14,375 bases of DNA from an uncultured Hyphomicrobiales bacterium (lineage in GTDB: Bacteria; Pseudomonadota; Alphaproteobacteria; Rhizobiales; Beijerinckiaceae): the NCBI GenBank assembly GCA_903903935.1, contig CAIVAX010000115.1, forward strand, positions 1 to 14,375, written 5' to 3'. Below the pieces are notes generated by a model that saw only the letters and a program-made list of their open reading frames with translations, had not been told where the DNA came from and did no database searches. Positions 1 through 14,375 of this stretch are shown one piece after another; the stretch's first letter is position 1, and every line of letters begins with the position of its first letter. The position numbers were made by a program, and so were the translations under genes.

Positions 1-1221
1 ATCCTGATCTGAATCAAGCATAACGGCCAGCACGAGAAGATCATTGAACACATTTTCTGAGGGATCACGAATAACCCCCGGCGCTTCTTTCCCAGCCTGC
101 ACATCCTTCATTGCGTTGAGCAGCATGCGACGCGCTTGCACAATGGCAATATCACTCGCACCCAAATGTTCTCTGGTGCGATCATGAATCTGTCCCGGTG
201 TTTCGACCGCGAAGAGATCATGCGAAGGAAAATAATTTCCCATCCCAGCAAATGTCTCCACCTTCATCTGCTCGCGATCTTGCAAATAGCGATTGGCTCT
301 GCTGCGCTCGGGCCGATAACCGGCTCCCATTTCTGTATTAACCTTATCTTCCAACCGCGGCCGATCAATCGGATTGACCGGATCATAATAAAAATCATAG
401 CGCCAATGTTGGCGATCATCGATTGGCACATGCCAGTGAACCGAATAGCTGGTGGGGCCTGATCGCCCCCCATCACCAGCAAAGAAACCAATATTCGGCA
501 TAGCAAAATTGGTGAGGCGAAGATATTTGCGGCTCTCGCCCGCACCGCGCTGCGCATAAATGCGCATGCCAAATCGGGTGCGTTCTATATCGATTTTGGG
601 CCGTGCTTGCTTGCCTGTCACTGCCTGCATTTCGAGATAGACACCCTTGCGCCCATCGCGGCCCGTATTCAAGGCATGCAGAAAGGATAAATGCGCCGGA
701 TCAAAATTTCCTTCATTGGCTTGCAGCTGATTGCAATCATGAAACACCTTTGTCGCAAAGACATGATTCTGATCGGCATGCAAGAAATGATAGTTTGGAA
801 CAAGCGGCGGCTCACCCGGACCCATATAAGTAAGAATGACGCCACCTGTCTCATAGCAGGGATAGGCCGTATGTTTGACCTCACTCTTATAAGTGCTGTC
901 AGCTGGCTCAGCAGGCTGATCGAGACAATGACCATGCTTGTCAAACAACCAGCCATGATAAAGACAGCGAATGCCTTCAGGCTCCAAACGCCCATAGGAT
1001 AAATCAGCACAGCGATGCGGACATAAAAGCCCCACTAGACCGGGCTGGCCCTTACCATCGCGAAACAGAACAAGATCCTCCCCCATGATTTTAACCTGTA
1101 GGGGCGCATCTTTAAGCTCTTCTGACAGGGCGACCGGCTGCCAATATCGGCGAAAGAGATCCCCTCCGGCTGTGCCTGGTCCGGTTCTCGTTAAAAGATC
1201 ATTCTCGTCACGCGTTGTCAT
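1..1221 (-). CDS. Rieske non-haem iron aromatic oxygenase, subfamily A, copy A1 (3' end cut by window)
   Basis: This is the catalytic oxygenase component of a phthalate-4,5-dioxygenase/O-demethylase-type Rieske enzyme, expected in the cytoplasm. It would insert oxygen into, or demethylate, an aromatic acid using electrons from a separate reductase. Translating the minus strand from ATG 1221-1219 gives 407 codons open to the window edge, so the C-terminus (about 25-30 aa by comparison with A2) is missing. The Rieske cluster is C67-P-H69 and C86-L-Y-H89. The mononuclear iron site is E170-GNF-D174-PA-H177-LSFL-H182, and the probable third ligand is D335 in a SHDLFAVET segment. The start is supported by GGGGAGG seven bases upstream and by alignment with A2 (both read ENDLL then GPGT). 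It lies 22 bp downstream of the frameshifted permease and is probably cotranscribed with it. The substrate cannot be read from sequence. Confidence 0.93.
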   Translation of the reverse strand, partial: MTTRDENDLLTRTGPGTAGGDLFRRYWQPVALSEELKDAPLQVKIMGEDLVLFRDGKGQPGLVGLLCPHRCADLSYGRLEPEGIRCLYHGWLFDKHGHCLDQPAEPADSTYKSEVKHTAYPCYETGGVILTYMGPGEPPLVPNYHFLHADQNHVFATKVFHDCNQLQANEGNFDPAHLSFLHALNTGRDGRKGVYLEMQAVTGKQARPKIDIERTRFGMRIYAQRGAGESRKYLRLTNFAMPNIGFFAGDGGRSGPTSYSVHWHVPIDDRQHWRYDFYYDPVNPIDRPRLEDKVNTEMGAGYRPERSRANRYLQDREQMKVETFAGMGNYFPSHDLFAVETPGQIHDRTREHLGASDIAIVQARRMLLNAMKDVQAGKEAPGVIRDPSENVFNDLLVLAVMLDSDQD

Positions 1222-1243
1222 GATCAACCCTCCCCATCTTATT

Positions 1244-2973
1244 TTATCGAACGTCTTGCCTGTGTCCCAGACGAAATGCAATGGCCGCCACACATAGCGA
1301 AATAAAAGCAATGATCACACCCACCACCGCCGCTGATTCAAACCGCCCAGAACTCGCAAAGTCAAACATCAGCAAAGATAAGGTCCGTGTGCCCGGCGCA
1401 GCAATCAGAACCACCGTACTGATGTCGCGAATGGTGCTGGCGAAGATCAACAAAAACACCGAAATCAAAGTCGGTGCAATCAAAGGCAAAGTGATGCGCC
1501 GGAAGATTTGCCAAAATCCAGCCCCCGACATTTTGGCTGCCTCTTCCAATTCCATCGAGGTTTGCGCAATCGATGTGCGGATCATTTGCACACCAATAGG
1601 GAGCTCCTTGATGATGAGGGCAAGGATGAGCGGAATCAAAGTTCCATAGAGCTTATTCAGTCCTGGCACATTCAACACAAGGCTCAGGAGTGTGAGCCCC
1701 AAAATCAAACCCGGAATGGCCCAGGGCAACCAGACCAGAAAACTTAATATATCTCTCGACCACAGACGCGAGCGCACAATCACCCAGGACAAGAGGGCAA
1801 AGAGCAAACAGCCGAGCAGGCCAACCGTTAACCCCAAGCTGACAGAATTGATAACCGATCGAACAAACCGATCATCCCCAAAGACGCCAAGCCAATGTTG
1901 AAATGTCCATGGATCCTCGAGAAAAAAGAATCCAAACAGCTTATTGAGTGAACCCGAAATCAGCACCAAAAGGGGGAGGAAAATACTGAAGAGAACATAA
2001 AGGATCAAAACCAAGCTGATGAGCGGCGCGAAGGCACGTTTGCGCAATTGCAAGCGCAAGCCCTTCCCCGTCAAAGTGGCGCGATGGCCAGCCCGACGCA
2101 GATAAATCTGATAATAGCCTGCCAACATAAACAGCATTGCCAAAAACACAGTGCTCAAAGCCAAAGCCTGCGAGAACAAGGGTGGCTCACGACTAATCAT
2201 CTCGAAAATGCGTGTCGCATAGACATAAATTCCAGCTGGCACACCCAGCAATTGTTCAACTTCAAACGTCTCCAGACTTCTAATCAAGCCCGCAATGAAA
2301 GCGGTGAGAATGGCCGGACTGAGCAAAGGCAGAGTCACGCGAAAAAAGATCGTCAAGGCACTCGCGCCCGACATCTCACCCGCTTCTTCATAGGCGGCAT
2401 CTATCTGCCGCAGTGCAGGGGCAAGCATGATCACCATGATGGGTATGGTCGTCAGACTCAAATGCACCCACATAATGCCCGGAATGGAATAAATCGAAAA
2501 AATCGGCTCTTCTAAAAAGAGCAATTTTGCGCAACCACATTGAGCAGACCATAATTCTTATCCAGCAAAAGAATCCAGCCCATCATCATCGGCACACTGG
2601 GCAGAAAGAACCCAAACATCAACGAGAGCTCAATGAACCGCCGCCCCGGAATATCAAAGCGGATCAGCAGCCATGACATGACCAGAGCAATGACAATGGC
2701 AAGGGGAACGCGCAGCGATAAAATCAAAGAATAAAACGCCGCATTCAATGTCCGCTGGCTCGCAATCATATCGCGCCAGCCATCCAGCCCAAATTGATAG
2801 GGCGCACCTAATCGGGCAACATCAAAACTCTCAATGACGACATACAGCACTGGCGCCAGCGTGATGAAGGCAACCAAAAGAAAAAGCGCAAATCCGTAAA
2901 ACCACTCAAGTCCTATTGCGCGTGATCGGACAATGCCCATTGACTTCGACGCAGACAGAGTTCCGTCGGTCAT
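1244..2973 (-). pseudogene. ABC transporter permease 1, fused two-domain AfuB/FbpB-like, split by a -1 frameshift
   Basis: Inner-membrane permease of a binding-protein-dependent importer. It is read in two frames: 2973-2512 (153 aa, ending in TAG) and an overlapping frame running from about 2524 to 1244. The first part ends NVVAQNCSF-stop and the second continues LEEPIFSIYS. Permease 2 has N-D-L-L-Q then KPIFSAYS at the same spacing. Adding one T to the T5 run (A5 on plus, 2514-2518) joins them with no gap and gives 576 aa, matching the 578- and 576-aa paralogues here. Both EAA loops survive (EEAGEMSGA and LEEAAKMSGA, each followed by a T-L-P-L segment), and no other stop interrupts the frame, so the lesion is recent or a sequencing error. 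The ATG at 2973 has only a weak ribosome site. The gene precedes Rieske A1 and is divergent from SBP1. An alternative is two polypeptides, the second restarting at TTG 2524. Confidence 0.85.
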
Positions 2974-2987
2974 CTGCCCAACTCACG

Positions 2988-3051
2988 CCAGATGGAGTGA
3001 TCGAGACCAGATGGATTGAGCACCGATTGAAGACAGAGTCCAAATCTGGTC
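2988..3051. repeat. Cluster of CCAGAT elements: 13-bp direct repeat plus a distal inverted copy
   Basis: CCAGATGGAGTGA (2988-3000) and CCAGATGGATTGA (3007-3019) match at 12 of 13 bases and lie 19 bp apart. GACCAGAT (3005-3012) has a perfect inverted copy, ATCTGGTC, at 3044-3051. The cluster is immediately upstream of the permease 1 start on the minus strand, so it is either in the 5' leader or a regulator-binding array. The function is inferred from position only. Confidence 0.5.
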
Positions 3052-3492
3052 AAGCCCAGCTGCGACATCTAGTCCACCTCCCCTATTCTTTATCTGCGCT
3101 TGGAAAGAATGTTCGTGGCCGGCCTGCATCCACATCCATCGACGCAGGACCTAAGCACAGTCTCACAAGCATATTCGAGCGTGTTTATAACAAATCCTTA
3201 TATAGATTTCTTCCGGCTTGAGAAGAGCGCCAGCCTCTTTCGCCTCCCTCAAGAGCGCTAAAAAGTTATAGGCAATAGCGTCGGTCGCGGACCGCTCGGC
3301 CGCTCAAAGCCGCCCCGCAAGTCTATGGATATGTTTAAGAAAATGACTTTTCCCCATTTGCAAGAGAAAATAGTCGATGTAACATGAGGAAATAAATAGG
3401 GAGATCGTCGGCCATCAATGACCGACAAAACAGCAGGCACATGCATCTGAGGCAAGCTTATCAAAGATCAACACCTCCCTCACAAATTCCTC

Positions 3493-3514
3493 TGGCACAG
3501 ATTGATCTGTGACA
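3493..3514. promoter_or_regulatory. Imperfect 22-bp palindrome upstream of SBP1, candidate operator
   Basis: The core CACAGAT-TG-ATCTGTG (3496-3511) is a perfect 7-bp inverted repeat with a 2-bp spacer. One mismatched pair is followed by two more matching pairs, giving 9 of 10 arms paired. It ends 31 bases before the SBP1 start codon. That size and symmetry are typical of a dimeric repressor site such as those of GntR- or MarR-class regulators. With only a 2-base spacer it is a poorer fit to an RNA hairpin. No regulator gene is present in the window to pair with it. Confidence 0.5.
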
Positions 3515-3545
3515 AATTGCCGCTGCACACCAAGAAGAGACCAAA

Positions 3546-4703
3546 ATGAAAAATCTCACCCCCCATTTTGATCTGGGCCAGAGCCTGTCCCCGGACAATC
3601 TCACCACGCCGCGCCGCATCTTTTTTACCTGCTTAACGCTGCTTGGCCTTTGTGTGACTCCACAGCTTGTCAAAGCCGATGATCAATGGCTGGAGGGTGC
3701 CGGCCCAGCTTGGACAGAAATGCTGACCAAGGCAAAGGCCGAAAAGCCTGTCGTTGTTGCCATTGGGGCGCCAATAGCCAATGAATTGGCCAGCGCCTTT
3801 AAGCGCGATACCGGCCTAGACCTCCAGCACATTGGCGGCGATGCCAGCGCGGTTTCTGCAAGATTGGCTCAGGAAATCGTCTCACCCAATCTGACCATTG
3901 ACGTGCAAATTGGCGGGAGCAGTGAATTGCCCTTCATTGAAAAGGGCCTCATGCAACCCATCAAGCCCTTGCTGGCCCTGCCGCGTGTGACTGAAGGTCA
4001 ATATTGGCTAGGCGGCAAAATCAGATGGATCGATAATGCTGGCCAATATTTTGCGCAGGGCGCTGAATATGTCTCGTTCCGCGTCTTCGCCAATCCCGAC
4101 AAAATCAATATTGCTGAAATTCGCGACTTCGCCGATCTTCTGAAGCCGCAATATAAGGGCAAGATTGCTTCATCTGATCCCAGCGGAGCGGCTGGCGGGC
4201 GCGGGTTTGCCGAAGCTGTCGCCTCTTCGCGCGGACAAGATTTTCTGATCAAACTCTATAAGGGCCAAGAGGTCACCTATACACGCAATCCAACCCAATT
4301 GGTGGAATGGGCCGCGCGCGGCGTGCAGCCAATCATCATTGGATCCTTGCAGCAATATATCGATAAATTTGTGAGCGAGGGCTTCAATATTAAATATGTG
4401 CCCTTCTCCGATTGGCCTGCTCATACAACCGGCGGCAGGAGCGTGATCAAAGTCCCCGCCAAGGCACCCCACCCCAATGCAGCTGCTGTTTTTGTCAATT
4501 GGTTCCTCAGTAAGCCCGGCCAAGAGCTTTATGAAAAATTGCTCGCCGAGCCCTCGCGGCGCACCGATGTCGCGCATGCCAATATTCCAGACTATGCCAT
4601 CCCCAAGCCCGGCAATGAGTATGTCGGCTCTTATGATGAATCCTATGTGCTTAAACTGCGTGGTGAAGTGGCCAAGCAAATGCGCGCTATTGTGAATGAG
4701 TAG
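3546..4703 (+). CDS. Periplasmic solute-binding protein SBP1 of an ABC importer (AfuA/COG1840-like)
   Basis: Periplasmic receptor that captures the substrate and delivers it to the membrane permease; 385 aa. A long N-terminal region is followed by RR and a hydrophobic stretch (about residues 25-41), with likely signal-peptidase cleavage after V-K-A at about residue 44. The mature part resembles AfuA-type binding proteins: an early VVVAIGAP segment, a KGKIASSDPSGAAGG segment, and a C-terminal APHPNAAAVFVNW motif followed by SRRTDV. These segments are shared with SBP2, so the two are paralogues. There is no adjacent Tyr-Tyr pair, which FbpA-type ferric-binding proteins usually use, so an Fe(III) ligand is doubtful and an organic anion is more likely. 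ATG 3546 follows AAGAAGAGA. It opens the operon SBP1-B1-B2-permease 2, with 8 bp to the next gene. The ligand is unknown. Confidence 0.88.
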   Translation: MKNLTPHFDLGQSLSPDNLTTPRRIFFTCLTLLGLCVTPQLVKADDQWLEGAGPAWTEMLTKAKAEKPVVVAIGAPIANELASAFKRDTGLDLQHIGGDASAVSARLAQEIVSPNLTIDVQIGGSSELPFIEKGLMQPIKPLLALPRVTEGQYWLGGKIRWIDNAGQYFAQGAEYVSFRVFANPDKINIAEIRDFADLLKPQYKGKIASSDPSGAAGGRGFAEAVASSRGQDFLIKLYKGQEVTYTRNPTQLVEWAARGVQPIIIGSLQQYIDKFVSEGFNIKYVPFSDWPAHTTGGRSVIKVPAKAPHPNAAAVFVNWFLSKPGQELYEKLLAEPSRRTDVAHANIPDYAIPKPGNEYVGSYDESYVLKLRGEVAKQMRAIVNE

Positions 4704-4711
4704 GACGAAGT

Positions 4712-5869
4712 ATGAGTGAATTAACAACAGCCCAGACCCATAAAGTCACCGATCTTGATCTGCATGCCACAGGCCCCGGCACTCTGGCTGGCCGTTATAT
4801 GCGCATGTTCTGGCATCCCATCTGCTTATCAACTGAAGTGGAAGCCGGGCGCTCACGCCGCGAACAGATCATGAGTGAATTTGTCACTATCTATCGTGGC
4901 GAGAGCGGCCAATTGCATGCTGTAGCCGATCGCTGCCCGCATCGCGGCGTGCAATTATCCATCGGCTGGGTGCAGGGCGAAGAGATCCGCTGCTTCTATC
5001 ATGGCTGGAAATTTAATGGTCAGGGGCAGTGCACCGAAATGCCGGCTGAAACGCCTGGCTATGCCGCACGCATGAAGATCAAGCATTATCCCGTCAAAGA
5101 ATATCTGGGCTTTGTGTTCATTTATCTTGGCGAGGGTGAGCCACCCGAATTGCCATGCTATCCTGAGCTGGAAGATGAGAAAGCCGGCGTGCTAGAATCT
5201 CTCGCGCGCTTTCCTGTTCCCTGCAATTATTTCCAGCGCCTCGAAAACAATATTGATCAGGTGCATGTCAATTTTGCTCATGGCGATGTCTTTGGCGATC
5301 AGGGTGTGGGGGAAATTCCCGAATATATCATCGAGCCAACCGACTTTGGCCTGCGCGCCATTGGGCGCCGCTCAACCGGTGACCGCGTCACCTATTATCA
5401 TATGCCCAATATTGGCGTGATTGCCGTCCCCCCCGTGGGCGATGAAGTCGATTGGGCCATTTTGGTTGTCTGGCGCGTGCCGGTTGATGATTATTCCAAT
5501 CGCAGCTTCAATGTCCGGCGGGCCCGCAAAAAGCCCGGTGCTCCCATCAAGCCCGTTGTGGATCGCTCTGCCGAGCAAGTGGCTGTCTCACTCGATATTT
5601 TAGCTGGACGCCGCAAGCTTGAAGAGATCAGCCAGAATGATCGTGAATTGCTTGTCCCCGTGCAAGATAATCTGGCCCTGATTGGACAGGGTGCGATTGC
5701 TGATCGTGGCGAAGCAGAAAATCTCGGCCGCTCCGATGCTGGCATCATAGCTCTGCGTCGTCTCTGGCGCACCGAATTGCAAAAACTGGTGGATGGCGAA
5801 GCCGTCAAACAATGGCCCTGGCCCAAAACGGGTATGAAGGTCACCTCAGGCGCAAAAGGCTCGGACTAG
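4712..5869 (+). CDS. Rieske non-haem iron aromatic oxygenase, subfamily B, copy B1
   Basis: Cytoplasmic oxygenase component of a ring-hydroxylating or O-demethylating system; 385 aa. The Rieske [2Fe-2S] ligands are C75-P-H77 and C94-F-Y-H97. The non-haem iron site is N-N-I-D182-QV-H185-VNFA-H190, with D319 in VQDN as the probable third ligand and a conserved GRSD near residue 340. The closest visible relative is B2 next door, collinear over the whole length and sharing segments such as GPGTLAGRY, YRGESGQ, GVQLS and WRVPVDD. It is clearly more distant from A1/A2, lacking their ADLSYGR and ENDLL signatures. The start at 4712 is 8 bp after SBP1, with GGACGAAG just upstream. It is in the middle of a transporter operon, so its substrate is probably the imported compound. 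A reductase is required and not seen. Confidence 0.93.
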   Translation: MSELTTAQTHKVTDLDLHATGPGTLAGRYMRMFWHPICLSTEVEAGRSRREQIMSEFVTIYRGESGQLHAVADRCPHRGVQLSIGWVQGEEIRCFYHGWKFNGQGQCTEMPAETPGYAARMKIKHYPVKEYLGFVFIYLGEGEPPELPCYPELEDEKAGVLESLARFPVPCNYFQRLENNIDQVHVNFAHGDVFGDQGVGEIPEYIIEPTDFGLRAIGRRSTGDRVTYYHMPNIGVIAVPPVGDEVDWAILVVWRVPVDDYSNRSFNVRRARKKPGAPIKPVVDRSAEQVAVSLDILAGRRKLEEISQNDRELLVPVQDNLALIGQGAIADRGEAENLGRSDAGIIALRRLWRTELQKLVDGEAVKQWPWPKTGMKVTSGAKGSD

Positions 5870-5924
5870 GGACGAACACAGCCTTGGGCCAAGCGCTTCA
5901 GGCTGCAAAAGTGGGAATGCTATT

Positions 5925-7073
5925 TTGACCGCCCCTGATGTCTCGCTGAATGATCTTGTGCATATAGGGCCCGGCACTTTGGCGGGGCGCTATTTGCGCC
6001 AGTTCTGGCACCCTGCCTGCCTCTCCTCCGAATTGAACGTGAAGGATAAGCGGCGCGAGCTGATCTTGGGGGAATATATCACGCTCTATCGCGGTGAAAG
6101 CGGACAGGTCCATGCTCTGACTGATCGCTGCGCCCATCGCGGTGTGCAGCTCTCTTTGGGCTGGGTAGAGGGCGAGAGAATTCGCTGCTTCTATCATGGC
6201 TGGACTTTTGATGGCGCTGGCGCTTGCAAAGAACAACCTGCCGAACCCCACGCCTATGCCGCGAGAGTCAAAATTCGTGCCTTTGCTGCGCGCGAATATC
6301 TGGGCATGATTTTTGTCTATCTGGGTGAGGCCCCCGCGCCAGCCTTTCCGACCTATCCCGAACTTGAAAATGAAGCTGATGGCGAACTCATCGCCGCAGC
6401 GCGTGCGCCTGTGCCCTGCAATTTTTTCCAACGCGTCGAAAATGCCGTCGATCAAGTGCATGTTGCCTTCGCCCACAGAGATGTCTTTGGCCTCGAAGGC
6501 GTACCCGATATTCCAGATTATAGCGTCGAGGAAACGTCCTATGGCCTGTGCGCGCGCGGCAAGCGACCGGGCAAAGCTGACCGCCTCACCCATTTTCACA
6601 TGCCCAATATCAACATTATGCAAGTTCCACCCAATAAGGATGAATTAGGCTGGGCACCCAATATTGTCTGGCGCGTGCCCGTGGATGATCACCATCATCG
6701 CAGCGTCAATATTCGGCGCGTTAAAAGGGATCCGCAAGCCCCGCAGATCTCACGCAATTATGAGCGCACAACAACCGATCGTCAGGTTGAAATTGCCAGA
6801 GCCATTCTGGATGGTCGCATGCGCCTTGATCAGCTCGACCCGATCAAAGATCGCGCCATCATTGTCGCTGTGCAAGATAATATAGCGCAGATGGGCCAAG
6901 GCGTGATTGCAAACCGGCAGAATGATCATCTGGGCCGCTCGGATGTTGGCGTGATTGCAGTGCGCAGATTATGGCTGGACGAATTACGCGCGCTCGCGCA
7001 AGGTCATGCCACACGCCAATGGACACGTCCCCCCGGCGGAGTTGAAATGACCTCAGGCGCATCTGTAGAATAA
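5925..7073 (+). CDS. Rieske non-haem iron aromatic oxygenase, subfamily B, copy B2 (TTG start)
   Basis: Second subfamily B oxygenase, 382 aa, apparently a tandem duplicate of B1 that has diverged. The Rieske ligands are C69-A-H71 and C88-F-Y-H91. The iron site is D176-QV-H179-VAFA-H184, with D318 in VQDN. All catalytic positions are kept, so it should be active; differences in the C-terminal domain (for example WAPNIVWRV against WAILVVWRV) could mean another substrate. The start is TTG at 5925: GGGA lies 9 bases before it, the nearby ATG at 5917 leads straight to a stop, and no in-frame ATG lies upstream in the gap. A 55-bp gap separates it from B1, and 7 bp separate it from permease 2. B1 and B2 may be separate enzymes or, less likely, subunits of one hetero-oligomer. 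Confidence 0.92.
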   Translation: MTAPDVSLNDLVHIGPGTLAGRYLRQFWHPACLSSELNVKDKRRELILGEYITLYRGESGQVHALTDRCAHRGVQLSLGWVEGERIRCFYHGWTFDGAGACKEQPAEPHAYAARVKIRAFAAREYLGMIFVYLGEAPAPAFPTYPELENEADGELIAAARAPVPCNFFQRVENAVDQVHVAFAHRDVFGLEGVPDIPDYSVEETSYGLCARGKRPGKADRLTHFHMPNINIMQVPPNKDELGWAPNIVWRVPVDDHHHRSVNIRRVKRDPQAPQISRNYERTTTDRQVEIARAILDGRMRLDQLDPIKDRAIIVAVQDNIAQMGQGVIANRQNDHLGRSDVGVIAVRRLWLDELRALAQGHATRQWTRPPGGVEMTSGASVE

Positions 7074-7080
7074 TCACTCA

Positions 7081-8817
7081 ATGCAAGTTACCAAAACGAG
7101 CGATAGTACCAAAAGCCCGTCAAAGCTGCGCCAGACATCCGTTTGGCACAATTGGCAAGGCCTCGCTATATGCCTGCTGGTTGGTCTGTTTACTGCTCTG
7201 CCGACACTTTATTTGATTGCCAATAGCTTCAATCTCTCTGGCATTGGTGAGGGCTTTCGCTTCGGCTTTGATAATTGGCTGGAGCTTGCGAACAATCGCT
7301 CCGTGAGCCGCGCTATCAATACGAGTTTTTTAATGTCCTTGCGCGCTCCGCTGGGCGTTATCATTGCTTTCGTGATCGCATGGATGTTGGTGCGCATAGA
7401 AATTCCGGGACGCAAAATTATTGAATACGGACTCTGGTTTGCCTTTTTTCTGCCTACGCTGCCGCTCACTGTGGGCTGGATCTTGCTGCTCGATCCCAAT
7501 TACGGCCTGATCAATGATCTCTTACAAAAATGGGGCGTGACGTCGAAGCCGATTTTTTCGGCCTATTCCATTGCCAGCATTATGTGGGTGCATTTATCTG
7601 CAACGATCATTCCCATTAATGTGATTTTACTCACCCCCGCCATTGCCAATATGGAAGCGGCTTTTGAAGAAGCCGCCACTATGTCCGGCGCCAATCGCTG
7701 GGTGAGTTTGAGCCGCATCACCATTCCGCTCATGGCGCCAGCCATTATCATCACGACGATTTTGGGTTTCATCAAATCTCTGGAAGCGTTCGAGGTTGAA
7801 CAAATCCTCGGCACACCAGCTAAAATCAGCGTCTTTGCCACTAAAATTTACGACTTTGTTCATTGGGATCCCCCGCGCCTTGGCGAAGCCATGGCTTTGA
7901 GCACAGCTTTGCTGATCATCTTGCTGGGCGTGACGATCCTGTATCGCTGGCTTTCTAAGGGCGATGTGGGTCATGCCACCATCACCGGCAAGACCAATCG
8001 CTTGCGATCATCGACACGGCCCAAATGGGCTTGGATCGCCTCTGCGCTGATCTTTCTCTATATGGCGATTGGCATTGTTCTGCCGCTGATCATTCTTGTT
8101 CTAGGCACATTCACACGGCTGTTTGGTTTCTTTTTTATGCCCAATCCTTGGACAAGCAAGCATTGGGTATCTGTTCTCAATGATCCGCATTTCCTGAATG
8201 CCTTCAGCAATTCTTTCTTGGTTGCAAGCCTCACAGCAGTGATTGGCACGATTACCTTTGTTCTTCTGGCTTGGGCCATTGTGCGCAGCCGCTTATGGGG
8301 ACGCGCTTTGCTCAATCTGCTGGTCTGGTTGCCCTGGGGCATTCCTGGAATCTTGCTGGGTCTGTCGACCTTAATCTTGATTCTCAATCTGCCCGGCCTT
8401 GTTCTCATTCACGGCACAATTGGCGCCTTGGTTCTCGTGCTGTTGATCAAAGAAATGCCCTTGGGCGTTCAAATGATCAAAACCTCGATGATGCAGATTG
8501 CCAAGGAATTGGAGGAGGCCGGACAAATGGCCGGCGCGCGCTTTGGCACGATTTTACTCCGCATCATCATTCCGCTGATTGCGCCGATGATTGGCAGCGT
8601 TTTCCTCTTGACCTTTGTCGTCGCCTTTCGCGACATTAGCGCGAGCATTCTTCTTGCCGGCCCCAATTCGCGCACAATGGCCATATTCATGATTGAACTG
8701 GGCGAAGAGGGCCGCTTCGAGGCCATGGCGGTGATCGGAGTGATCTTGTCCTTTGTTGTTTTGCTCATGACGATTGCCATGCGCATGCTGCAATCGCGCA
8801 TCGGCATTCAACGCTAG
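7081..8817 (+). CDS. ABC transporter permease 2, fused two-domain AfuB/FbpB-like (intact)
   Basis: Inner-membrane pore of an importer, 578 aa, made of two tandem BPD_transp_1 units, so one chain supplies both transmembrane halves. A hydrophobic helix at about residues 28-47 opens the protein. The first EAA loop is E197-A-A-TMSG203 followed by ITIPLMAP. The second is E478-E-A-GQMAG followed by IIIPLIAP. These loops dock the ATPase. It shares segments such as WILLLDPNYGL, IMWVHLSA and LFGFFF(M/L) with permease 1. The start at 7081 follows the B2 stop by 7 bp with a weak ribosome site, suggesting translational coupling. It closes the SBP1-B1-B2 operon, so SBP1 is its likely partner. No ATPase is encoded beside it. 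The 27-bp gap to the convergent SBP2 gene shows no clear terminator hairpin. Confidence 0.93.
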   Translation: MQVTKTSDSTKSPSKLRQTSVWHNWQGLAICLLVGLFTALPTLYLIANSFNLSGIGEGFRFGFDNWLELANNRSVSRAINTSFLMSLRAPLGVIIAFVIAWMLVRIEIPGRKIIEYGLWFAFFLPTLPLTVGWILLLDPNYGLINDLLQKWGVTSKPIFSAYSIASIMWVHLSATIIPINVILLTPAIANMEAAFEEAATMSGANRWVSLSRITIPLMAPAIIITTILGFIKSLEAFEVEQILGTPAKISVFATKIYDFVHWDPPRLGEAMALSTALLIILLGVTILYRWLSKGDVGHATITGKTNRLRSSTRPKWAWIASALIFLYMAIGIVLPLIILVLGTFTRLFGFFFMPNPWTSKHWVSVLNDPHFLNAFSNSFLVASLTAVIGTITFVLLAWAIVRSRLWGRALLNLLVWLPWGIPGILLGLSTLILILNLPGLVLIHGTIGALVLVLLIKEMPLGVQMIKTSMMQIAKELEEAGQMAGARFGTILLRIIIPLIAPMIGSVFLLTFVVAFRDISASILLAGPNSRTMAIFMIELGEEGRFEAMAVIGVILSFVVLLMTIAMRMLQSRIGIQR

Positions 8818-8844
8818 AGATCAGCAAAGATTAAAAATTGCCTG

Positions 8845-10023
8845 CTATTTACCAATTTCTTGCAAAATCGCGACAACCTTGCTCTGATAATCTTGGATCT
8901 CTTCATTCTGCGAGCCAATATAAGCGGCCAGATTTTGCGCATCGACCTCTAAGTCTGGATCATGCGCTTTCACATCCGTGCGCCGACTATTGAGCTTGAG
9001 AGCCAAGGTCAATTTTTCTTGCGTCTCTTGTTTCAAGAGCCAATTGACAAACAGCTTGGCAGCATTGGGATGTGGCGCGCCTTTCATCAAAGTGAGCGCG
9101 CCCACGCCCGGCGTCCAGACTTTGAGCTCTTTCATCTCGACAAAATCATCAAGCTTCACGCCCCTTTGGCCATATTCGAGGAATGTCGCTTTGGGAATGC
9201 CAAAGGCAATGGGATTGCGGCCTGAGGCAATCCAATCCATCTGCTGGCGTGGTTCTTTGGTGATCACGGGCTGCTGATCAACCAGCAATTTGCGGATAAA
9301 CTCTTCGCCATAAACTTGATAGATCGCCGAGAGCGCATTTAGCGAAGCCCCGCCGCGCGGATCCGCCATGGAAATCTTGCCCTTGAATTTAGGCTGCAAG
9401 AGCCCTTTGACGGATTGATCCTCGGGCGTAGAAGCAAATTTACGATTATAGGAGGCAGATGCTGTTTCATAAGCGATGAAGGCGAAGAAATATTCCTTCT
9501 CTTTATCAAGGTAAGAATTTTGAATCCCGCCCAGCCATTTGGTCGAATCCACAACCTCCGGCAACATCAGTAATGGTTTGATGGGATCAAGCGCACCGGC
9601 CTTTTTGAACGCATAGCCGGGCGCATCAAGGCCCCCCACACGCAAATCCCATAAGATCTGGCCCACATCCCGCTCTTTGGAAAAGCGCGGCCAGAAATCG
9701 CGGCTCGCCATAGGCGTAACTTCAAGCTTGATGCCGGGATAATCCTTCTGAAACTCCATCAATTGCACACGCCAATCACGCCCCTGCGGACCCGAAATAA
9801 CCAAAGTCCCTTCCTTATTGGCGGCGGCAACCAGAGCATCCCAACCGGGAACTTGCGACTCTTTCGAGGCGCCCTGCGCATAGGCAGCAGAAAGGCTCAT
9901 CACACTGGCCAGACACAGAGCTGAGAATTTCAATGTAACCGAGGCCATGAAGGAAACACTTGCACTTTGCGACATAGGCTCACACTTCGCCCGATCCGAA
10001 TTGATAATTGCACTGCATGTCAT
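8845..10023 (-). CDS. Periplasmic solute-binding protein SBP2 of an ABC importer (AfuA/COG1840-like)
   Basis: Paralogue of SBP1, 392 aa from the chosen start. A hydrophobic signal core (about residues 30-46) ends S-A-A-Y-A, with cleavage likely after A49. Shared features are IKPLLMLPEV, LQPKFKGKIS then a DPRGGA segment, APHPNAAKLFVNWLL and SRRTDV. Like SBP1 it has no Tyr-Tyr pair, arguing against ferric iron. ATG 10023 has the strongest ribosome site (GGGAGG seven bases away). ATG 10068 would add 15 residues with a poorly spaced GAGG. ATG 9975 or 9948 would give a more ordinary signal-peptide length but weak sites. It is downstream of Rieske A2 by 83 bp on the same strand and converges on permease 2. 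No permease follows in its own operon; the divergent permease 3 is the likely partner. Confidence 0.87.
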   Translation of the reverse strand: MTCSAIINSDRAKCEPMSQSASVSFMASVTLKFSALCLASVMSLSAAYAQGASKESQVPGWDALVAAANKEGTLVISGPQGRDWRVQLMEFQKDYPGIKLEVTPMASRDFWPRFSKERDVGQILWDLRVGGLDAPGYAFKKAGALDPIKPLLMLPEVVDSTKWLGGIQNSYLDKEKEYFFAFIAYETASASYNRKFASTPEDQSVKGLLQPKFKGKISMADPRGGASLNALSAIYQVYGEEFIRKLLVDQQPVITKEPRQQMDWIASGRNPIAFGIPKATFLEYGQRGVKLDDFVEMKELKVWTPGVGALTLMKGAPHPNAAKLFVNWLLKQETQEKLTLALKLNSRRTDVKAHDPDLEVDAQNLAAYIGSQNEEIQDYQSKVVAILQEIGK

Positions 10024-10060
10024 GGCCAGCCCTCCCAGAGCATTTATGGCAGACGGGATT

Positions 10061-10080
10061 TGCCTCATTCTGCCTCATCT
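10061..10080. repeat. Tandem 10-bp repeat in the A2-SBP2 gap
   Basis: TGCCTCATTC is followed directly by TGCCTCATCT. On the minus strand this gives two AATGAGGCA/GATGAGGCA units, the first of which acts as a possible ribosome site for the ATG at 10068. No function is evident beyond that. Confidence 0.4.
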
Positions 10081-10106
10081 TGATTCATGTTGACTGACGC
10101 AAAGCC

Positions 10107-11378
10107 TCATGCCCTTTTCTGGACACGCTCTTTCCAGAATTCCTTATGATCGACCTCGGCAGGAATAACCTCGGAGACCACAACAATAGTGGAGCAATCA
10201 TTCTGTGCCTGTTCGCGGAACACATGAATTGGATCCTTGCCCGCCTGCACGGCGGCAATGCCATTGAGCAAGGTGCGGCGCGCAGCCACAATGCACACAT
10301 CGGTTGAGCCCAAATGCTCCTTGGTGCGATCCACAATCGCGCCCATGCTCTCGGTGGCAAACGCATCATGCACGGGGAAATAATCACCCATGCCTGTATA
10401 ATTGGAGGTCTTCATCAATTCGCGATCCTGCAGATAGCGATTGGAGCGATTGCGCACATGGCGATGATCGGGCGTGCGCTCTGTCTCATGGTGCTTGTCA
10501 TACCGCGAGCGCTCAATCGGGCGGACGCGATTGAAAATGAAATCGAAGCGCAGATTATGCTCATCATCCACCGGCACATGCCAATGCAGAGAATAGCCCT
10601 GACCAACCCGCCCCTCATTGCCAACAATGGCCGCTTTATTGGGCATAATGAAATTTGTGACCCGCAGATATTTGCCCTTCTCGCCAGCATTGCGGATGGA
10701 ATAATTGCGCACACCAAATTCTGTGCGCTCAATCTCCAACTTGGGGCGCGTGTCATCTCTATAATAAGCATCGGCCGATTTATCACTGCCTGGAACCGCC
10801 CGGCTATCGACCGGCGCCATGGGTTTATGCAGATAAGATAGATGCGAGGGGTCAATATTGCCCTCGATTGCTTGCAGCCAATTGCTATCCAAATGCGTCT
10901 TGACGAGGAAGCGATGCTCTTCATCGGCGTTCAAAAATTCATATTCGGGAAACAAAGGGGCGGGATCTTTGCCCAGATAAGCAAAGATCATCCCCGCGCG
11001 CTCAATGCATTTATAAGCGTTATGGTGAATCTCATCCTTATAAGTGCTGTCTTCAGGCTCAGCAGGCTGCTCCAGACAGCGGCCGTTCACATCAAACAGC
11101 CAGCCATGATAGAGGCAGCGCAAGCCGCCATCCTCAATGCGGCCATAGCTCAAATCCGCGCAGCGATGCGGACATAAGATATCCATCAATCCCACACGGC
11201 CTTTGTCATCGCGAAACAAAACGAGATCTTCTCTCAAAATCCGCAGCGGCAGGGGCGCGCTACCAGGAGGCAGATCCTCACTCAGGGCAACGGGATGCCA
11301 ATATTTGCGCATCAGCTCACCGCCCGGCGTGCCTGGGCCTGTATGAGTCAGCAAGTCATTTTCGGCAGGCGAGACCAT
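10107..11378 (-). CDS. Rieske non-haem iron aromatic oxygenase, subfamily A, copy A2
   Basis: Full-length paralogue of A1, 423 aa from ATG 11378. The Rieske ligands are C69-P-H71 and C88-L-Y-H91. The iron site is E172-GNI-D176-PS-H179-LSYL-H184, with D338 in VHDAFATES as the probable third ligand. It resembles phthalate-4,5-dioxygenase and related demethylases more than B1/B2, with the signatures CPHRCADLSYGR and AEPEDSTYK. The open frame extends upstream to 11429, but ATG 11378 is preferred: GAGGGAG lies 9 bases before it and the protein then begins like A1 (ENDLL after five residues). A -35/-10 pair lies about 55 bp upstream. SBP2 follows 83 bp downstream, forming a two-gene oxygenase plus receptor unit, a mirror of the permease 1-A1 unit. 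Substrate and reductase are unknown. Confidence 0.93.
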   Translation of the reverse strand: MVSPAENDLLTHTGPGTPGGELMRKYWHPVALSEDLPPGSAPLPLRILREDLVLFRDDKGRVGLMDILCPHRCADLSYGRIEDGGLRCLYHGWLFDVNGRCLEQPAEPEDSTYKDEIHHNAYKCIERAGMIFAYLGKDPAPLFPEYEFLNADEEHRFLVKTHLDSNWLQAIEGNIDPSHLSYLHKPMAPVDSRAVPGSDKSADAYYRDDTRPKLEIERTEFGVRNYSIRNAGEKGKYLRVTNFIMPNKAAIVGNEGRVGQGYSLHWHVPVDDEHNLRFDFIFNRVRPIERSRYDKHHETERTPDHRHVRNRSNRYLQDRELMKTSNYTGMGDYFPVHDAFATESMGAIVDRTKEHLGSTDVCIVAARRTLLNGIAAVQAGKDPIHVFREQAQNDCSTIVVVSEVIPAEVDHKEFWKERVQKRA

Positions 11379-11420
11379 TTGGCATTTCTCCCTCTCAGCG
11401 CTCATTGACAGTGTGGCGCT

Positions 11421-11428
11421 TGACGTCA
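11421..11428. promoter_or_regulatory. TGACGTCA palindrome at the predicted A2 transcription start
   Basis: A perfect 8-bp palindrome just downstream of the proposed -10 box of the A2 promoter. Position suggests an operator, but eight bases can occur by chance and it is not seen in the other divergent region. Confidence 0.3.
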
Positions 11429-11430
11429 TT

Positions 11431-11460
11431 AATGTAGGAAAGAACCTGCGGGACTGTCAA
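11431..11460 (-). promoter_or_regulatory. Candidate sigma-70-type promoter for Rieske A2
   Basis: On the minus strand TTGACA (11460-11455, perfect -35) is followed after 18 bp by TACATT (11436-11431, 4 of 6 to TATAAT). Transcription would start near 11424, leaving a leader of about 45 bases before ATG 11378. The perfect 8-bp palindrome TGACGTCA lies at the predicted start point, where a repressor could block initiation. Confidence 0.5.
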
Positions 11461-11495
11461 CGAAATCCCGCTTTTCAAATCGAGGGGGGATGAAT

Positions 11496-11532
11496 GCACA
11501 GGCTGAGCACAGGATCAGTATTGGGGATCAGT
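11496..11532. repeat. Direct repeats in the A2/permease 3 divergent region
   Basis: GCACAGG occurs at 11496-11502 and 11507-11513, spaced 11 bp (about one helical turn). GGATCAGT occurs at 11512-11519 and 11525-11532, spaced 13 bp. They lie upstream of permease 3 and could be activator-binding half sites. The hexamer GCACAG also appears at 3155-3160 and inside the palindrome upstream of SBP1 (3495-3500). Confidence 0.35.
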
Positions 11533-11576
11533 GTCGCGAACGCCCATCGCTGCCATTTTGATCGCGTCTTATCATC

Positions 11577-13307
11577 TTGACCCTGACGAAGCCCTCTCCA
11601 GCCAAATCTACCTCCCTCTGGCGCCTCAAGCTGCCCGGGCAAATGGCTGGCGCGCTTTTATTGCTCACGCTGCTTGTGCTGGTGGCCTATCCCTTGGCGC
11701 TGCTCATCTATGGAAGTTTTCTGTCAGACCAACCCGGCCAATCGCACAACCTTAGCCTTAATTCTTGGACCAGCGCTTTGTCGCAACCCGGCATGAGCAC
11801 GGCGCTGATCAATACACTCAAACGTACAGCTATTACTGAAATCATCGCTCTGCCCAGCGCTATTGTGATTGCCTGGCTGGCTGCGCGCACCGATATGCCA
11901 GGGCGACTTTGGCTTGATCGATTGCTCTGGATGGCTTTCTTTTTACCGGCTCTGCCCGTTTTGCTGGGCTGGATTCTTTTATTCGATCCAGATTTCGGAT
12001 TGGCCAATCAGCTCGTGATGAAAGTGTTCGGCTCAACCGAACCCTGGTTCAATATTTATTCCTTCTGGGGCATTGTCTTTGCTCATATGGCCTCGCGCTC
12101 AATTGCGGCCAAATATATTTTTCTGGTTCCCGCCTTTCGTAATTTCGATGGCGCGCTGGAAGAGGCCTCCATCATCGCAGGCTATGGAACCTTGCGCACA
12201 CTGTGGCAAATTGTCGTACCCCTCTTGGTTCCTGCCATAATGGTCACCGCGATCATCTCGCTGGTTCATTCCCTCGAATCCTTCGAGATTGAGCTCATTC
12301 TGGGCGGCCCAATCGACTTTTATGTCTTTTCAACGCGGATCTATCGCCTGATTGAACAATCACCGCCGCTGTTTGGCGCGGCAACAGTTCTGGCACTGGC
12401 TGTTTTATTCTGCATGCTGCCTTTGATGATCTGGCAGCAGCGCATTTTGGCCTCGCGCAATTTCGCCACTGTGACGAGTCATTTTCGCCCCCGCCTTTTG
12501 CGTCTTGGGCGCTGGCGCTGGCCAATCTGCTGTGCACTCGCCTTGGGCGGGCTGATCATCACTCTGGTGCCGACACTCTGCCTAATCATGGGCACATTCA
12601 TGAATCTGTTTGGCAAGTTTGATTTAGAGATTGTCTGGACGCTGGATCATTGGTCGGCCATTTTGAATGATCACGAAACGCTCTCTGGCTTGTTTAACAC
12701 GCTCATCATGGGGCTTGCTGCGGCCGCCCTTGCTCTCGTTTGGTTTCCGGCCATTGCCTATGTCACCGATCGCACCCGCCTGCCCGGACATAGTCTGCTG
12801 GGACTTTTGGCCTGGCTGCCCGCCACCTTGCCGGGAATTATTTTAGGTCTTGGTCTGTTGTGGATGTTTCTCACCACACCCTTATTGCGCGGCCTTTATG
12901 GATCCATTGGCGTGTTGATTCTGGCTGTGCTGATTGCCGCTCTCTCCACCGGCGTGCAATTGATCCGCAGCAATCTGGTGCAAATCAGCCGTGAGCTGGA
13001 AGAAGCCTCTTACATCACCGGCGCCAGCTGGCTGACCACCTTCCGGTTGATCATGATGCCCCTATTGGGGCCTGTTCTGCTCACCGTGGCTTTGCTCACC
13101 TTCAACTCTGCGGCTCGCAATGTGGCAGGCGTTGCCATGCTAGCCACTGCCTCCAATCGCCCCCTCGCTATGTTGCAAGTGGATTATATGGTGGATGGAC
13201 GCTATGAACCTGCAGCCATTGTGGGTGTGTTGATTGTTGCCATGACCCTTGGCATGGCCTTTGTGACGCGCATCCTTGCCAATCGCATCGGCATTCGAAC
13301 CCATTAA
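11577..13307 (+). CDS. ABC transporter permease 3, fused two-domain AfuB/FbpB-like (TTG start)
   Basis: Inner-membrane permease, 576 aa, with two BPD_transp_1 halves and the same plan as permeases 1 and 2. The first hydrophobic helix covers about residues 23-45. EAA loop 1 is E195-E-A197-SIIAG followed by VVPLLVP. EAA loop 2 is E475-E-A477-SYITGA followed by MMPLLGP. It is the most divergent of the three; permeases 1 and 2 share motifs it lacks (such as IMWVHLS, replaced by IVFAHMASRS). The start is uncertain: TTG 11577 is the first usable codon after an in-frame TGA at 11559 and gives a basic leader like permease 2, but no ribosome site is visible. The next choice, ATG 11643, also lacks one and trims the leader to nothing. 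It heads an operon with the LigB homologue and the ATPase, 38 bp before the former. Confidence 0.9.
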   Translation: MTLTKPSPAKSTSLWRLKLPGQMAGALLLLTLLVLVAYPLALLIYGSFLSDQPGQSHNLSLNSWTSALSQPGMSTALINTLKRTAITEIIALPSAIVIAWLAARTDMPGRLWLDRLLWMAFFLPALPVLLGWILLFDPDFGLANQLVMKVFGSTEPWFNIYSFWGIVFAHMASRSIAAKYIFLVPAFRNFDGALEEASIIAGYGTLRTLWQIVVPLLVPAIMVTAIISLVHSLESFEIELILGGPIDFYVFSTRIYRLIEQSPPLFGAATVLALAVLFCMLPLMIWQQRILASRNFATVTSHFRPRLLRLGRWRWPICCALALGGLIITLVPTLCLIMGTFMNLFGKFDLEIVWTLDHWSAILNDHETLSGLFNTLIMGLAAAALALVWFPAIAYVTDRTRLPGHSLLGLLAWLPATLPGIILGLGLLWMFLTTPLLRGLYGSIGVLILAVLIAALSTGVQLIRSNLVQISRELEEASYITGASWLTTFRLIMMPLLGPVLLTVALLTFNSAARNVAGVAMLATASNRPLAMLQVDYMVDGRYEPAAIVGVLIVAMTLGMAFVTRILANRIGIRTH

Positions 13308-13345
13308 GATGATAACCCCATTAGAACAAAATAGAGGAGACAATC

Positions 13346-14242
13346 ATGGCTAAACTCATTGGCGCCCTTGCCATGTCGCACGCCCCGCAATTGATCATGC
13401 CACCAGAAAAATGGCCGGATCTGCCCGCCAGAGCCAAAGGGCCGTTTAACCCCAAAGCGACAATCGCCAGTGAAATCACGCCAGAGGCACATCTGGCCCG
13501 CGCCGCGCAATGCAAAGCGGCCATTGCGGGCCTGCGCGAGAAACTTGAAGCGCTCAATCCCGATGCCGTTATTGTCTTTGGCGATGATCAGCATGAAAAT
13601 ATCTTCGACGATAATATGTCGCCCTTTTGTATTTACACTGCCGAAAAGGTCGCTGCGACCGAACATTTCCTCTATTTGGGCGCTAAAGCCGAAGACCAGA
13701 TGACCCATTATGATGTCCCCGCATTGGCAGGCGACTTGTTGCACCAATTATGGGAGCGGGATTTTGATCTTGCCTGGTCGCGCGAAACACGCGACCCCTG
13801 CGGCTTGGGCCATGCTTTCGGTCGCGCGTTGAAATTTCTGATGCCGACCAAAAAAATCCCGATCGTGCCAATCATGGTCAATACATATTATCCCCCCGCC
13901 CCCAGCGCACGGCGCTGTCTGCGGTTGGGCGAGGCGCTGCGCGCAAGTCTGGAAGCCATTCCCGGCGATCAGCGCATTGTGCTTTTAGCCTCAGGCGGGC
14001 TCAGCCATACGGTGATCGATGAATCATTTGATCACGCCTTCATTGGCGCCTTGTATAATCGCGATGTCACCTATCTCGAAAGCCTGAGCGCTGATCAGAT
14101 GATGTATGGCACATCAGAAATTCGCAATTGGATCATCCTGTCTGGCGCTATGCCTAAAGGCGTCTCGCATGTGGATTATATTCCCTGCTATCGCAATGCT
14201 GATGGCGTGGGCTGTGCCATGGGCTTTGCATCATGGAGCTAA
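13346..14242 (+). CDS. LigB-type class III extradiol ring-cleavage dioxygenase
   Basis: Non-haem Fe(II) enzyme that opens a catechol-type ring beside the hydroxyls; cytoplasmic; 298 aa, close to the length of the LigB catalytic subunit of protocatechuate 4,5-dioxygenase. The LigB fold is marked by SHAP with H12 and GDDQH with H83 as the two expected iron histidines, and E258 in SEIRNW as the expected carboxylate ligand. The catalytic-base histidine is H221 in SGGLSH. Other typical segments are GLGHAF and PIMVNTYYPP. All expected catalytic residues are present. Substrate could be protocatechuate, gallate, 3-O-methylgallate or a related diol; sequence alone does not decide. No separate LigA-type small subunit is visible. 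ATG 13346 has a strong GAGGAGA ribosome site. It sits between permease 3 and the ATPase gene, overlapping the latter by 10 bp, so uptake and ring opening are probably expressed together. Confidence 0.9.
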   Translation: MAKLIGALAMSHAPQLIMPPEKWPDLPARAKGPFNPKATIASEITPEAHLARAAQCKAAIAGLREKLEALNPDAVIVFGDDQHENIFDDNMSPFCIYTAEKVAATEHFLYLGAKAEDQMTHYDVPALAGDLLHQLWERDFDLAWSRETRDPCGLGHAFGRALKFLMPTKKIPIVPIMVNTYYPPAPSARRCLRLGEALRASLEAIPGDQRIVLLASGGLSHTVIDESFDHAFIGALYNRDVTYLESLSADQMMYGTSEIRNWIILSGAMPKGVSHVDYIPCYRNADGVGCAMGFASWS

Positions 14243-14375
14243 ATTCATCGCCCGAACCTCTGCTGAGCCTGCGCGGTCTAACCAAGCGCTATGGCTCTTT
14301 TGCGGCCGTCGATCAGATTGATCTCGATATCCGCAAAGGCGAGGTTTTTGCGCTTCTGGGCCCCAGCGGCTGCGG
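14233..14375 (+). CDS. ABC transporter ATP-binding protein (5' part only)
   Basis: N-terminal 47 residues of an ABC ATPase that energises an importer on the cytoplasmic face of the membrane. The A-loop region reads LTKRYGSFAAVD with the aromatic tyrosine that stacks on adenine. The sequence then runs GEVFALLGPSGCG, the first half of the Walker A motif, where the window ends. This form fits the PotA/FbpC-type ATPases that work with fused AfuB-like permeases. ATG 14233 overlaps the end of the LigB gene by 10 bp in another frame, implying translational coupling; no strong ribosome site is seen. It is the only ATPase gene in the window and may serve permeases 1-3. Confidence 0.9.
   Translation, partial: MELNSSPEPLLSLRGLTKRYGSFAAVDQIDLDIRKGEVFALLGPSGC

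Follow-up and report, generated by a model that had tools for sequence, protein, structure and literature searches.

Why do Rieske oxygenase genes in an uncultured Hyphomicrobiales bacterium alternate with genes for ATP-binding cassette (ABC) importers whose binding proteins, where databases name them, are mostly called iron(III) or Fe3+ transport proteins? The stretch that raises this question (the window, 14,375 nucleotides) is the whole of contig CAIVAX010000115.1 (C115), which belongs to a draft genome that totals 2.6 Mb over 583 contigs and is 82% complete. It contains four Rieske oxygenases (ROs; ROa to ROd), three fused ABC permeases (perm1 to perm3), two substrate-binding proteins of the FbpA/AfuA type (SBPs; SBP1 and SBP2), a dioxygenase of the LigB family and the beginning of an ATPase gene. 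We propose that these genes probably form two catabolic importer-oxygenase modules for aromatic acids, one nested in the other, and that the importers are not iron transporters.

Module A consists of perm3 (11577..13307, plus strand), the LigB gene (13346..14242, plus) and the ATPase start (14233..>14375, plus), divergent from ROd (10107..11429, minus; probable start 11378), SBP2 (8845..10068, minus), perm1 (1244..2973, minus) and ROa (1..1221, minus). Module B comprises SBP1 (3546..4703), ROb (4712..5869), ROc (5925..7073) and perm2 (7081..8817), all on the plus strand; in the window this block has the opposite orientation to its neighbours SBP2 and perm1, between which it is located. The ATPase gene overlaps the LigB stop and is truncated by the contig end, its 47 codons reaching the Walker A motif GPSGC; ROa is truncated by the contig start only at about its last codon. 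The Pfam Rieske family PF00355 was passed by all four oxygenases (E 9e-19 to 1e-22), and both SBPs passed SBP_bac_11, _8, _1 and _6. Permeases perm2 and perm3 are intact, and each contains two BPD_transp_1 (PF00528) stretches, as in fused AfuB/PhnU2-type chains of ~550-600 residues. The gene perm1 is split over two open reading frames (2512-2973 and 1244-2524); the long piece passed PF00528 and the short piece matched no family. Compared with the intact gene in a related genome (locus L103), the perm1 frame is broken by one base near 2510-2525, and its counterpart is a single unbroken match in both L103 and L104. The break may be either an assembly error or the decay of a gene after its operon was interrupted. 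Open reading frames and Pfam confirmed the gene list and strand pattern given in an earlier note on this stretch, together with its statement that each Rieske gene has an importer gene next to it in the same orientation (ROa-perm1, SBP1-ROb, ROc-perm2 and ROd-SBP2). Of the note's three permeases, perm1 is not intact in this assembly.

The two modules are found apart in other genomes. Loci L081 and L104 are one place in genome G004, of the same genus, where ATPase-LigB-perm3 is transcribed divergently from ROd-SBP2-perm1-ROa-SBP. From LigB to ROa these proteins are 69-84% identical to those of the window and the terminal SBP is 37% identical to SBP1; the ATPase is not comparable over its length with the window fragment. 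In L103, from the metagenome-assembled genome (MAG) RH-23may17-787 (G449, same genus), LigB (truncated by the contig end) and perm3 are divergent from ROd-SBP2-perm1-ROa-SBP, with 82-89% identity from perm3 to ROa. Taken singly, ROa is 79-82% identical to the oxygenase at the same position in L081 and L103, ROd 84-89% identical to its counterparts there and perm3 79-84%. Neither G004 nor L103 has the second block between SBP2 and perm1, and module B stands on its own in G449 (L230, contig C11), where the identities are 81% for SBP1, 83% for ROb, 70% for ROc and 66% for perm2. ROd-SBP2 with a permease of the perm3 clade and an ATPase alongside was also found in L105-L108.

Within the window, ROa and ROd are 54% identical, ROb and ROc 55%, and the remaining oxygenase pairs 31-33%; the permeases are mutually 35-48% identical and SBP1 and SBP2 29%. 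Because the paralogues share only 29-55% identity and the modules are separate in G449, a recent tandem duplication is ruled out. Judged by these comparisons, the window array consists of two old modules, one nested in the other, and is not the duplicated system that the earlier note described, since its halves diverged long ago. Composition gave no sign of a join that would mark a chimeric contig (GC content 0.49-0.57 along the window in 500-base steps, 0.51-0.56 in ten contigs of the same genome and 0.59-0.63 in four loci of two relatives); the nested order may nonetheless reflect a misassembly. Insertion of module B would separate perm1-ROa from the promoter of ROd. The broken gene is perm1, and a link between the two is only a suggestion. 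Alignment of the region upstream of SBP1 between the window and L230 revealed no clear conservation. Another contig of the same genome, C236 (L010, positions 1-5973), carries two ROs, an SBP, a permease and an alpha/beta hydrolase. This hydrolase is a 68% counterpart of the gene adjoining the ATPase in G004, and C236 may therefore come directly after the window in the genome.

The association of oxygenase and binding protein was found to be a property of close relatives of the window genes. A collection of 84,980 species genomes was scanned for ROd/ROa relatives, and the best 79 loci of 365 stretches were characterized; among these, L104 and L113, L103 and L137, and L110 and L114 share genomes, and in some cases the gene is close to a contig end. 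At 50% identity to ROd or more, an SBP of this type was located within 400 bp in 9/10 loci and a fused permease within 5 kb in 7/10. These counts were 3/11 and 1/11 at 45-49% identity, and 2/58 and 0/58 below 45%. SBP2 itself is rare, being matched at E 1e-40 or better in 3/385 genomes of the class, its own included. Two genomes from a different family, including G256 (the L108 genome), together yielded five SBP2 relatives: three directly adjoin an RO, a fourth has one within 2 kb with a permease between, and around the fifth no RO was visible. SBP1 relatives gave 19 matches in 6 of 51 genomes of the genus, and 9 of the 16 examined outside the window (out of 17) had an RO within 400 bp.

The same association was evident from the permeases. 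In the own genome and three others of the genus, 18/51 fused permeases were within 3 kb of a Rieske match versus 3.9 expected, using a Rieske list that omits the weakest matches; the own-genome count includes the three window permeases, and without them the count is 15/48. In a permease tree, which was built by a fast method and has several long branches, all three window permeases fell in a clade of 26 rows, 20 of which were RO-linked, 3 unlinked and 3 limited by contig ends, many of the rows having come from searches for ROs or SBPs. When only rows outside the window that were found by permease sequence alone and had enough flank are considered, 5/7 were RO-linked (L081 twice, L084, L012 and L083; unlinked, L082 and L100). 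On the evidence of gene neighbourhoods, RO-importer coupling is specific and marks the clade of the window, while most fused permeases are not RO-linked. A similar RO-SBP-ATPase-permease run is also present in the SAR202 MAG L133, and RO-SBP dyads with no permease in the retrieved stretch were seen in L232, L235 and L239. Contigs C236, C189 and C580 of the own genome each hold an RO, an SBP and a permease, with no ATPase seen on these short contigs. Searched against plasmids, perm2 had only matches below 60% identity (1159 records), and within 10 kb of the best of them (a Rhizobium plasmid, L100) there was no RO, either by annotation or by detection. Conserved synteny, the RO-SBP linkage and the excess of permeases near Rieske genes support the proposal of the earlier note that this is one coupled uptake-and-oxidation system and not a set of separate loci.

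All four oxygenases retain complete catalytic ligands. Residues C65, H67, C84, H87, D172, H175, H180 and D355 (ROa-row numbering) are invariant, with the CxH/CxxH cluster, the D-x2-H-x4-H motif and the third acidic iron position all kept; we take these residues to be the Rieske and mononuclear iron ligands. ROa, an alpha subunit, is of the LigXa_C/phthalate-4,5-dioxygenase type and ROd of the LigXa_C/phthalate-dioxygenase type, with LigXa_C (PF19301) scores of 110.8 and 134.4, respectively; ROc reached 28.0 against a cut-off of 27, with no single stretch passing, and ROb fell below it at 21.6. The best solved relatives of ROd were of the phthalate type, namely 7fjl (241 bits), 7fhr (214) and 9ina (200), whereas ROb best matched 7fhr, followed by 9ina and 7fjl. 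We take 7fjl to be the phthalate dioxygenase of Comamonas testosteroni KF1, its chain having S182, R207 and R244 at the positions published for that enzyme. These three residues are described as carboxylate contacts (PMC12445078). An arginine matching R244, or R234 of the isophthalate dioxygenase of KF1 (9ina), is present in all four ROs. The best NCBIfam oxygenase model for each of them was methylsterol monooxygenase, far below its cut-off. Rieske oxygenases are clearly expanded in this genus, with 45 to 72 Rieske-domain matches per genome in G003, G004, G010, G012, G014, G019, G021 and G023; the own draft genome has 24.

Both binding proteins have the FbpA/AfuA fold (COG1840-type), and the importer is of the AfuA/AfuB type that the earlier note had named. 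A predicted structure of SBP1 (pLDDT, a model confidence score, 89.9) gave FutA, FbpA and IbpS as top folds, with AfuA lower, and the nearest fold to SBP2 was MctA, a metal-citrate binder; these VIA-align and Foldseek lists bear on fold only. Over the mature SBP the fold is common to FbpA and FutA (Fe3+), AfuA and VcA0625 (sugar phosphates), P5PA (pyridoxal phosphate) and MctA (metal-citrate). The window SBPs differ from these proteins in having 12-22% identity to them, no ferric-site Tyr-Tyr and an oxygenase as genetic partner. The tandem tyrosines in the C-terminal lobe of FbpA are the iron ligands, and they were found in 0/65 rows of the SBP1 family and 0/65 of the SBP2 family, where the site was matched for SBP1 against YfuA/SfuA and for SBP2 via MctA and SBP1, with no ferric structure. 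On this ground a role as iron transporters is disfavoured. In the SBP2 family seven arginines are conserved in 64 or 65 of 65 rows. A 2-aminoethylphosphonate importer (PhnSTUV) was also considered and rejected, with PhnS, PhnU2 and PhnT2 all under their NCBIfam cut-offs: the PhnU2 model covers perm2 and perm3 nearly full length at 137-140 bits versus an equivalog cut-off of 593, and PhnT2 came nearest to passing, at 343 against 458, for the ATPase taken from L104. A full-length ATPase occupies the position of the window ATPase in L081/L104, and it is a fair inference from gene content that one ATPase may serve several permeases.

With 11378 as the most likely start of ROd, the divergent region before perm3 is 198 bases long. 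This region contains an inverted repeat, TTGACAGT-N40-ACTGTCAA (11405..11460), whose arms and exact spacing are identical in three genomes (the window, L103 and G004, at L081/L104) and which was found in 0/200 shuffles of the window. On the ROd strand of all three genomes, manual counting identified TTGACA-N18-TACATT, a sigma-70-like promoter. At one mismatch or fewer the repeat was not found in the other loci scanned, L105-L108 included; on visual inspection, L105 has a less exact version whose spacer is longer.

The LigB protein passed PF02900 with 81.9 bits (cut-off 26.3), and its best match in the PDB was 2,3-dihydroxyphenylpropionate dioxygenase, followed by protocatechuate and gallate dioxygenases, placing it among class III extradiol ring-cleavage enzymes. 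Of 120 relatives listed, 12 carry the JGI name 3-O-methylgallate 3,4-dioxygenase, most being unnamed or generally named. No LigY-type hydrolase is encoded in the window, but genes near module A in relatives may extend the pathway: an amidohydrolase (with a counterpart of similar sequence in L104) and an alpha/beta hydrolase in L103; a ring hydroxylase together with two hydrolases, one FAA and one alpha/beta, in L105; RraA-type aldolases in L107 and L108; and an amidohydrolase in L108. The best solved relative of the L108 amidohydrolase is LigY, then 4-oxalomesaconate hydratase, and the L103 enzyme is 33% identical to it. A dihydroxyphthalate-decarboxylase-like gene in L107 was named by eye, Pfam giving only weak NMT1/phosphonate-binding matches. 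RidA-like genes adjoin the cluster in both L105 and L108, and MetE-like genes lie near ROd-SBP2 in L105 (14030-15412, PF01717) and L106 (12472-12795, named by eye).

Taken together, these results are consistent with a model in which the periplasmic SBP of each module would catch an aromatic acid, a fused permease with the ATPase would carry it inward, and the neighbouring RO would convert it to an acid of the catechol type through oxidative O-demethylation or through hydroxylation. Ring opening in module A would then fall to the LigB enzyme, and the amidohydrolase found beside this module in relatives, outside the window, would hydrolyse or decarboxylate the cleavage product. The single ATPase gene seen would be common to three permeases and two SBPs, and an RO reductase encoded elsewhere would probably be shared as well. 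The acids taken up are probably plant-derived, and the sequences suggest that they are likely methoxylated or polycarboxylated aromatics from lignin or humic matter. We consider it possible, more tentatively, that the arrangement is one of modular receptor-oxygenase pairs, in which each RO has its own SBP, a few fused permeases and one ATPase are shared, and substrates are added by acquiring or nesting dyads or modules.

Several observations weigh against aromatic-acid importers coupled to oxygenases. The top folds for SBP1 are true ferric-binding proteins. For the SBP1 relatives in G446:C91, G004:C14, G449:C94, G449:C45 and G431, no RO lies within 400 bp. The window open reading frames showed neither an RO reductase nor a dihydrodiol dehydrogenase gene (a reductase-like gene with Fer2, FAD_binding_6 and NAD_binding_1 lies near another RO on own contig C175). 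The nested order and the broken perm1 are known from one MAG assembly. The earlier note had held that importers lying mostly apart from oxygenases would refute the coupling; this is what was seen in the wide permease family, in which 33/51 had no Rieske match within 3 kb (some contigs being too short to tell), but not among the permeases nearest to those of the window. Two ortho-carboxylate residues that phthalate dioxygenase requires for phthalate are not conserved in ROd: S182 is replaced by Leu, and R207 aligns with Ala, the alignment being gappy around R207. With the R244 match kept and S182 and R207 not, a carboxylated aromatic is the likely substrate and o-phthalate, which we disfavour for ROd, an unlikely one.

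Could these genes have another purpose? The fold, the database names, the FutA and FbpA likeness of SBP1 and the metal-citrate ligand of MctA would all suit importers that supply iron or iron-citrate to the many iron enzymes of the genome and stand beside ROs only through co-regulation. We regard this as improbable, given that the tyrosine pair of FbpA is missing from every row of both families and that RO clades have their own SBPs, accompanied by ring-cleavage, amidohydrolase and aldolase genes. These same genes bear on whether the substrates are instead other carboxylated compounds, such as N-heterocycles, betaines or steroid-like acids. RO sequence is a poor predictor of chemistry, the methylsterol monooxygenase model was the best if distant match, and RidA-like and MetE-like genes are near the cluster; however, LigB, the LigY-like amidohydrolase and RraA-type genes fit ring cleavage of benzoate-type compounds better, and we hold other substrates to be unlikely, though less so than iron. 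Finally, in a genus rich in ROs and ABC genes, with up to 72 Rieske matches per genome and most tested fused permeases lacking a nearby RO, adjacency might reflect chance or loose catabolic clustering. The excess over the 3.9 permeases expected, the gene order kept in other families, the similar run in a SAR202 MAG and the divergent control region conserved in three genomes make this explanation very unlikely. Two importer-oxygenase modules for aromatic acids remain the more probable reading.

The nearest known logic is that of ligXa-ligZ-ligY in Sphingobium sp. SYK-6, as indicated by the combination of LigB, a LigY-like amidohydrolase and a LigXa-type RO; LigZ is, we assume, a member of the LigB family. 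Both systems combine a Rieske enzyme (in SYK-6 the O-demethylase LigXa) with a ring-cleavage dioxygenase and a dedicated importer; SYK-6 also has a meta-cleavage hydrolase in its cluster, for which the amidohydrolases beside module A in relatives are candidate counterparts. The SYK-6 5,5'-dehydrodivanillate cluster reads ligXa-ligZ-ligY-ddvK-ddvR-ddvT, and DdvK is an inner-membrane carrier of the major facilitator superfamily (MFS) (PMC6874591). In the window, FbpA/AfuA-type ABC importers take the place of DdvK and the ROs number four; neither a regulator nor a TonB receptor was seen. The phthalate importers PatDABC and OphFGH also take up an aromatic acid by an ABC system, and their substrate is subsequently oxidised by a Rieske enzyme; they differ in that one importer serves each pathway, without an array of fused permeases. 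PatDABC is from Rhodococcus jostii RHA1 and OphFGH from Burkholderia (PMC10973024, PMC3223731). OphFGH is filed in the taurine-uptake (TauT) family, not with FbpA/AfuA; a 2011 ligand survey gives TauT as the sole ABC family then listed for aromatics and reports a COG0687 (polyamine-type) protein that bound p-coumarate (PMC3223731). The ROs resemble the KF1 phthalate and isophthalate dioxygenases in score and in the shared arginine (PMC12445078), but differ from the former in lacking S182 and R207 in ROd and in the preference of ROb for 7fhr. SAR202 group VII, an uncultured group degrading dissolved organic matter, likewise has expansions of ring-hydroxylating dioxygenases, that is, many RO paralogues (PMC6946804); the word 'transporter' does not occur in the main text of that article, which implies that no importer pairing is reported there. 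While ABC uptake of phthalate and MFS uptake in the LigXa cluster are already known, no description of Rieske oxygenases paired with FbpA/AfuA-type importers was found among the open-licence papers that the searches listed.

Related arrangements were observed elsewhere. Own contig C174 (L012, 3271-12378) carries a decarboxylase-like gene, LigB, a glyoxalase-fold gene, an RO, a class V aminotransferase, a glutathione S-transferase-like gene, a fused permease and an intradiol dioxygenase; L241 (G431:C239) keeps this cluster without the intradiol dioxygenase, six genes being 81-95% identical. A second importer theme in the genus consists of an SBP and a fused permease (L085, L086, L087, L089, L091 and L092), and in most loci a glyoxalase-fold gene, an FAA hydrolase gene or both come next (by Pfam in L086 and L091, by similar sequence in the others); neither an ATPase nor a Rieske gene was detected alongside. 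On own contig C221 (L018, 6543-8592) an RO lies beside a family-5 SBP, and on C95 (L011, 9004-13049) one lies by two permease-like genes and one ATPase-like gene, peptide-type by eye.

Uncultured aquatic bacteria encode dozens of ROs without assigned substrates. If each RO is tied genetically to a specific SBP, ligand screening of these small soluble proteins would offer a practical way of assigning RO substrates. In that case a large set of 'iron transporter' annotations could also be corrected, and terrestrial aromatic carbon would have an uptake route besides the MFS, TRAP and TTT carriers. On the more tentative view of modular receptor-oxygenase pairs, a wide branch of "iron(III)-binding" proteins would be receptors for lignin and humic aromatic acids in fresh and salt water.

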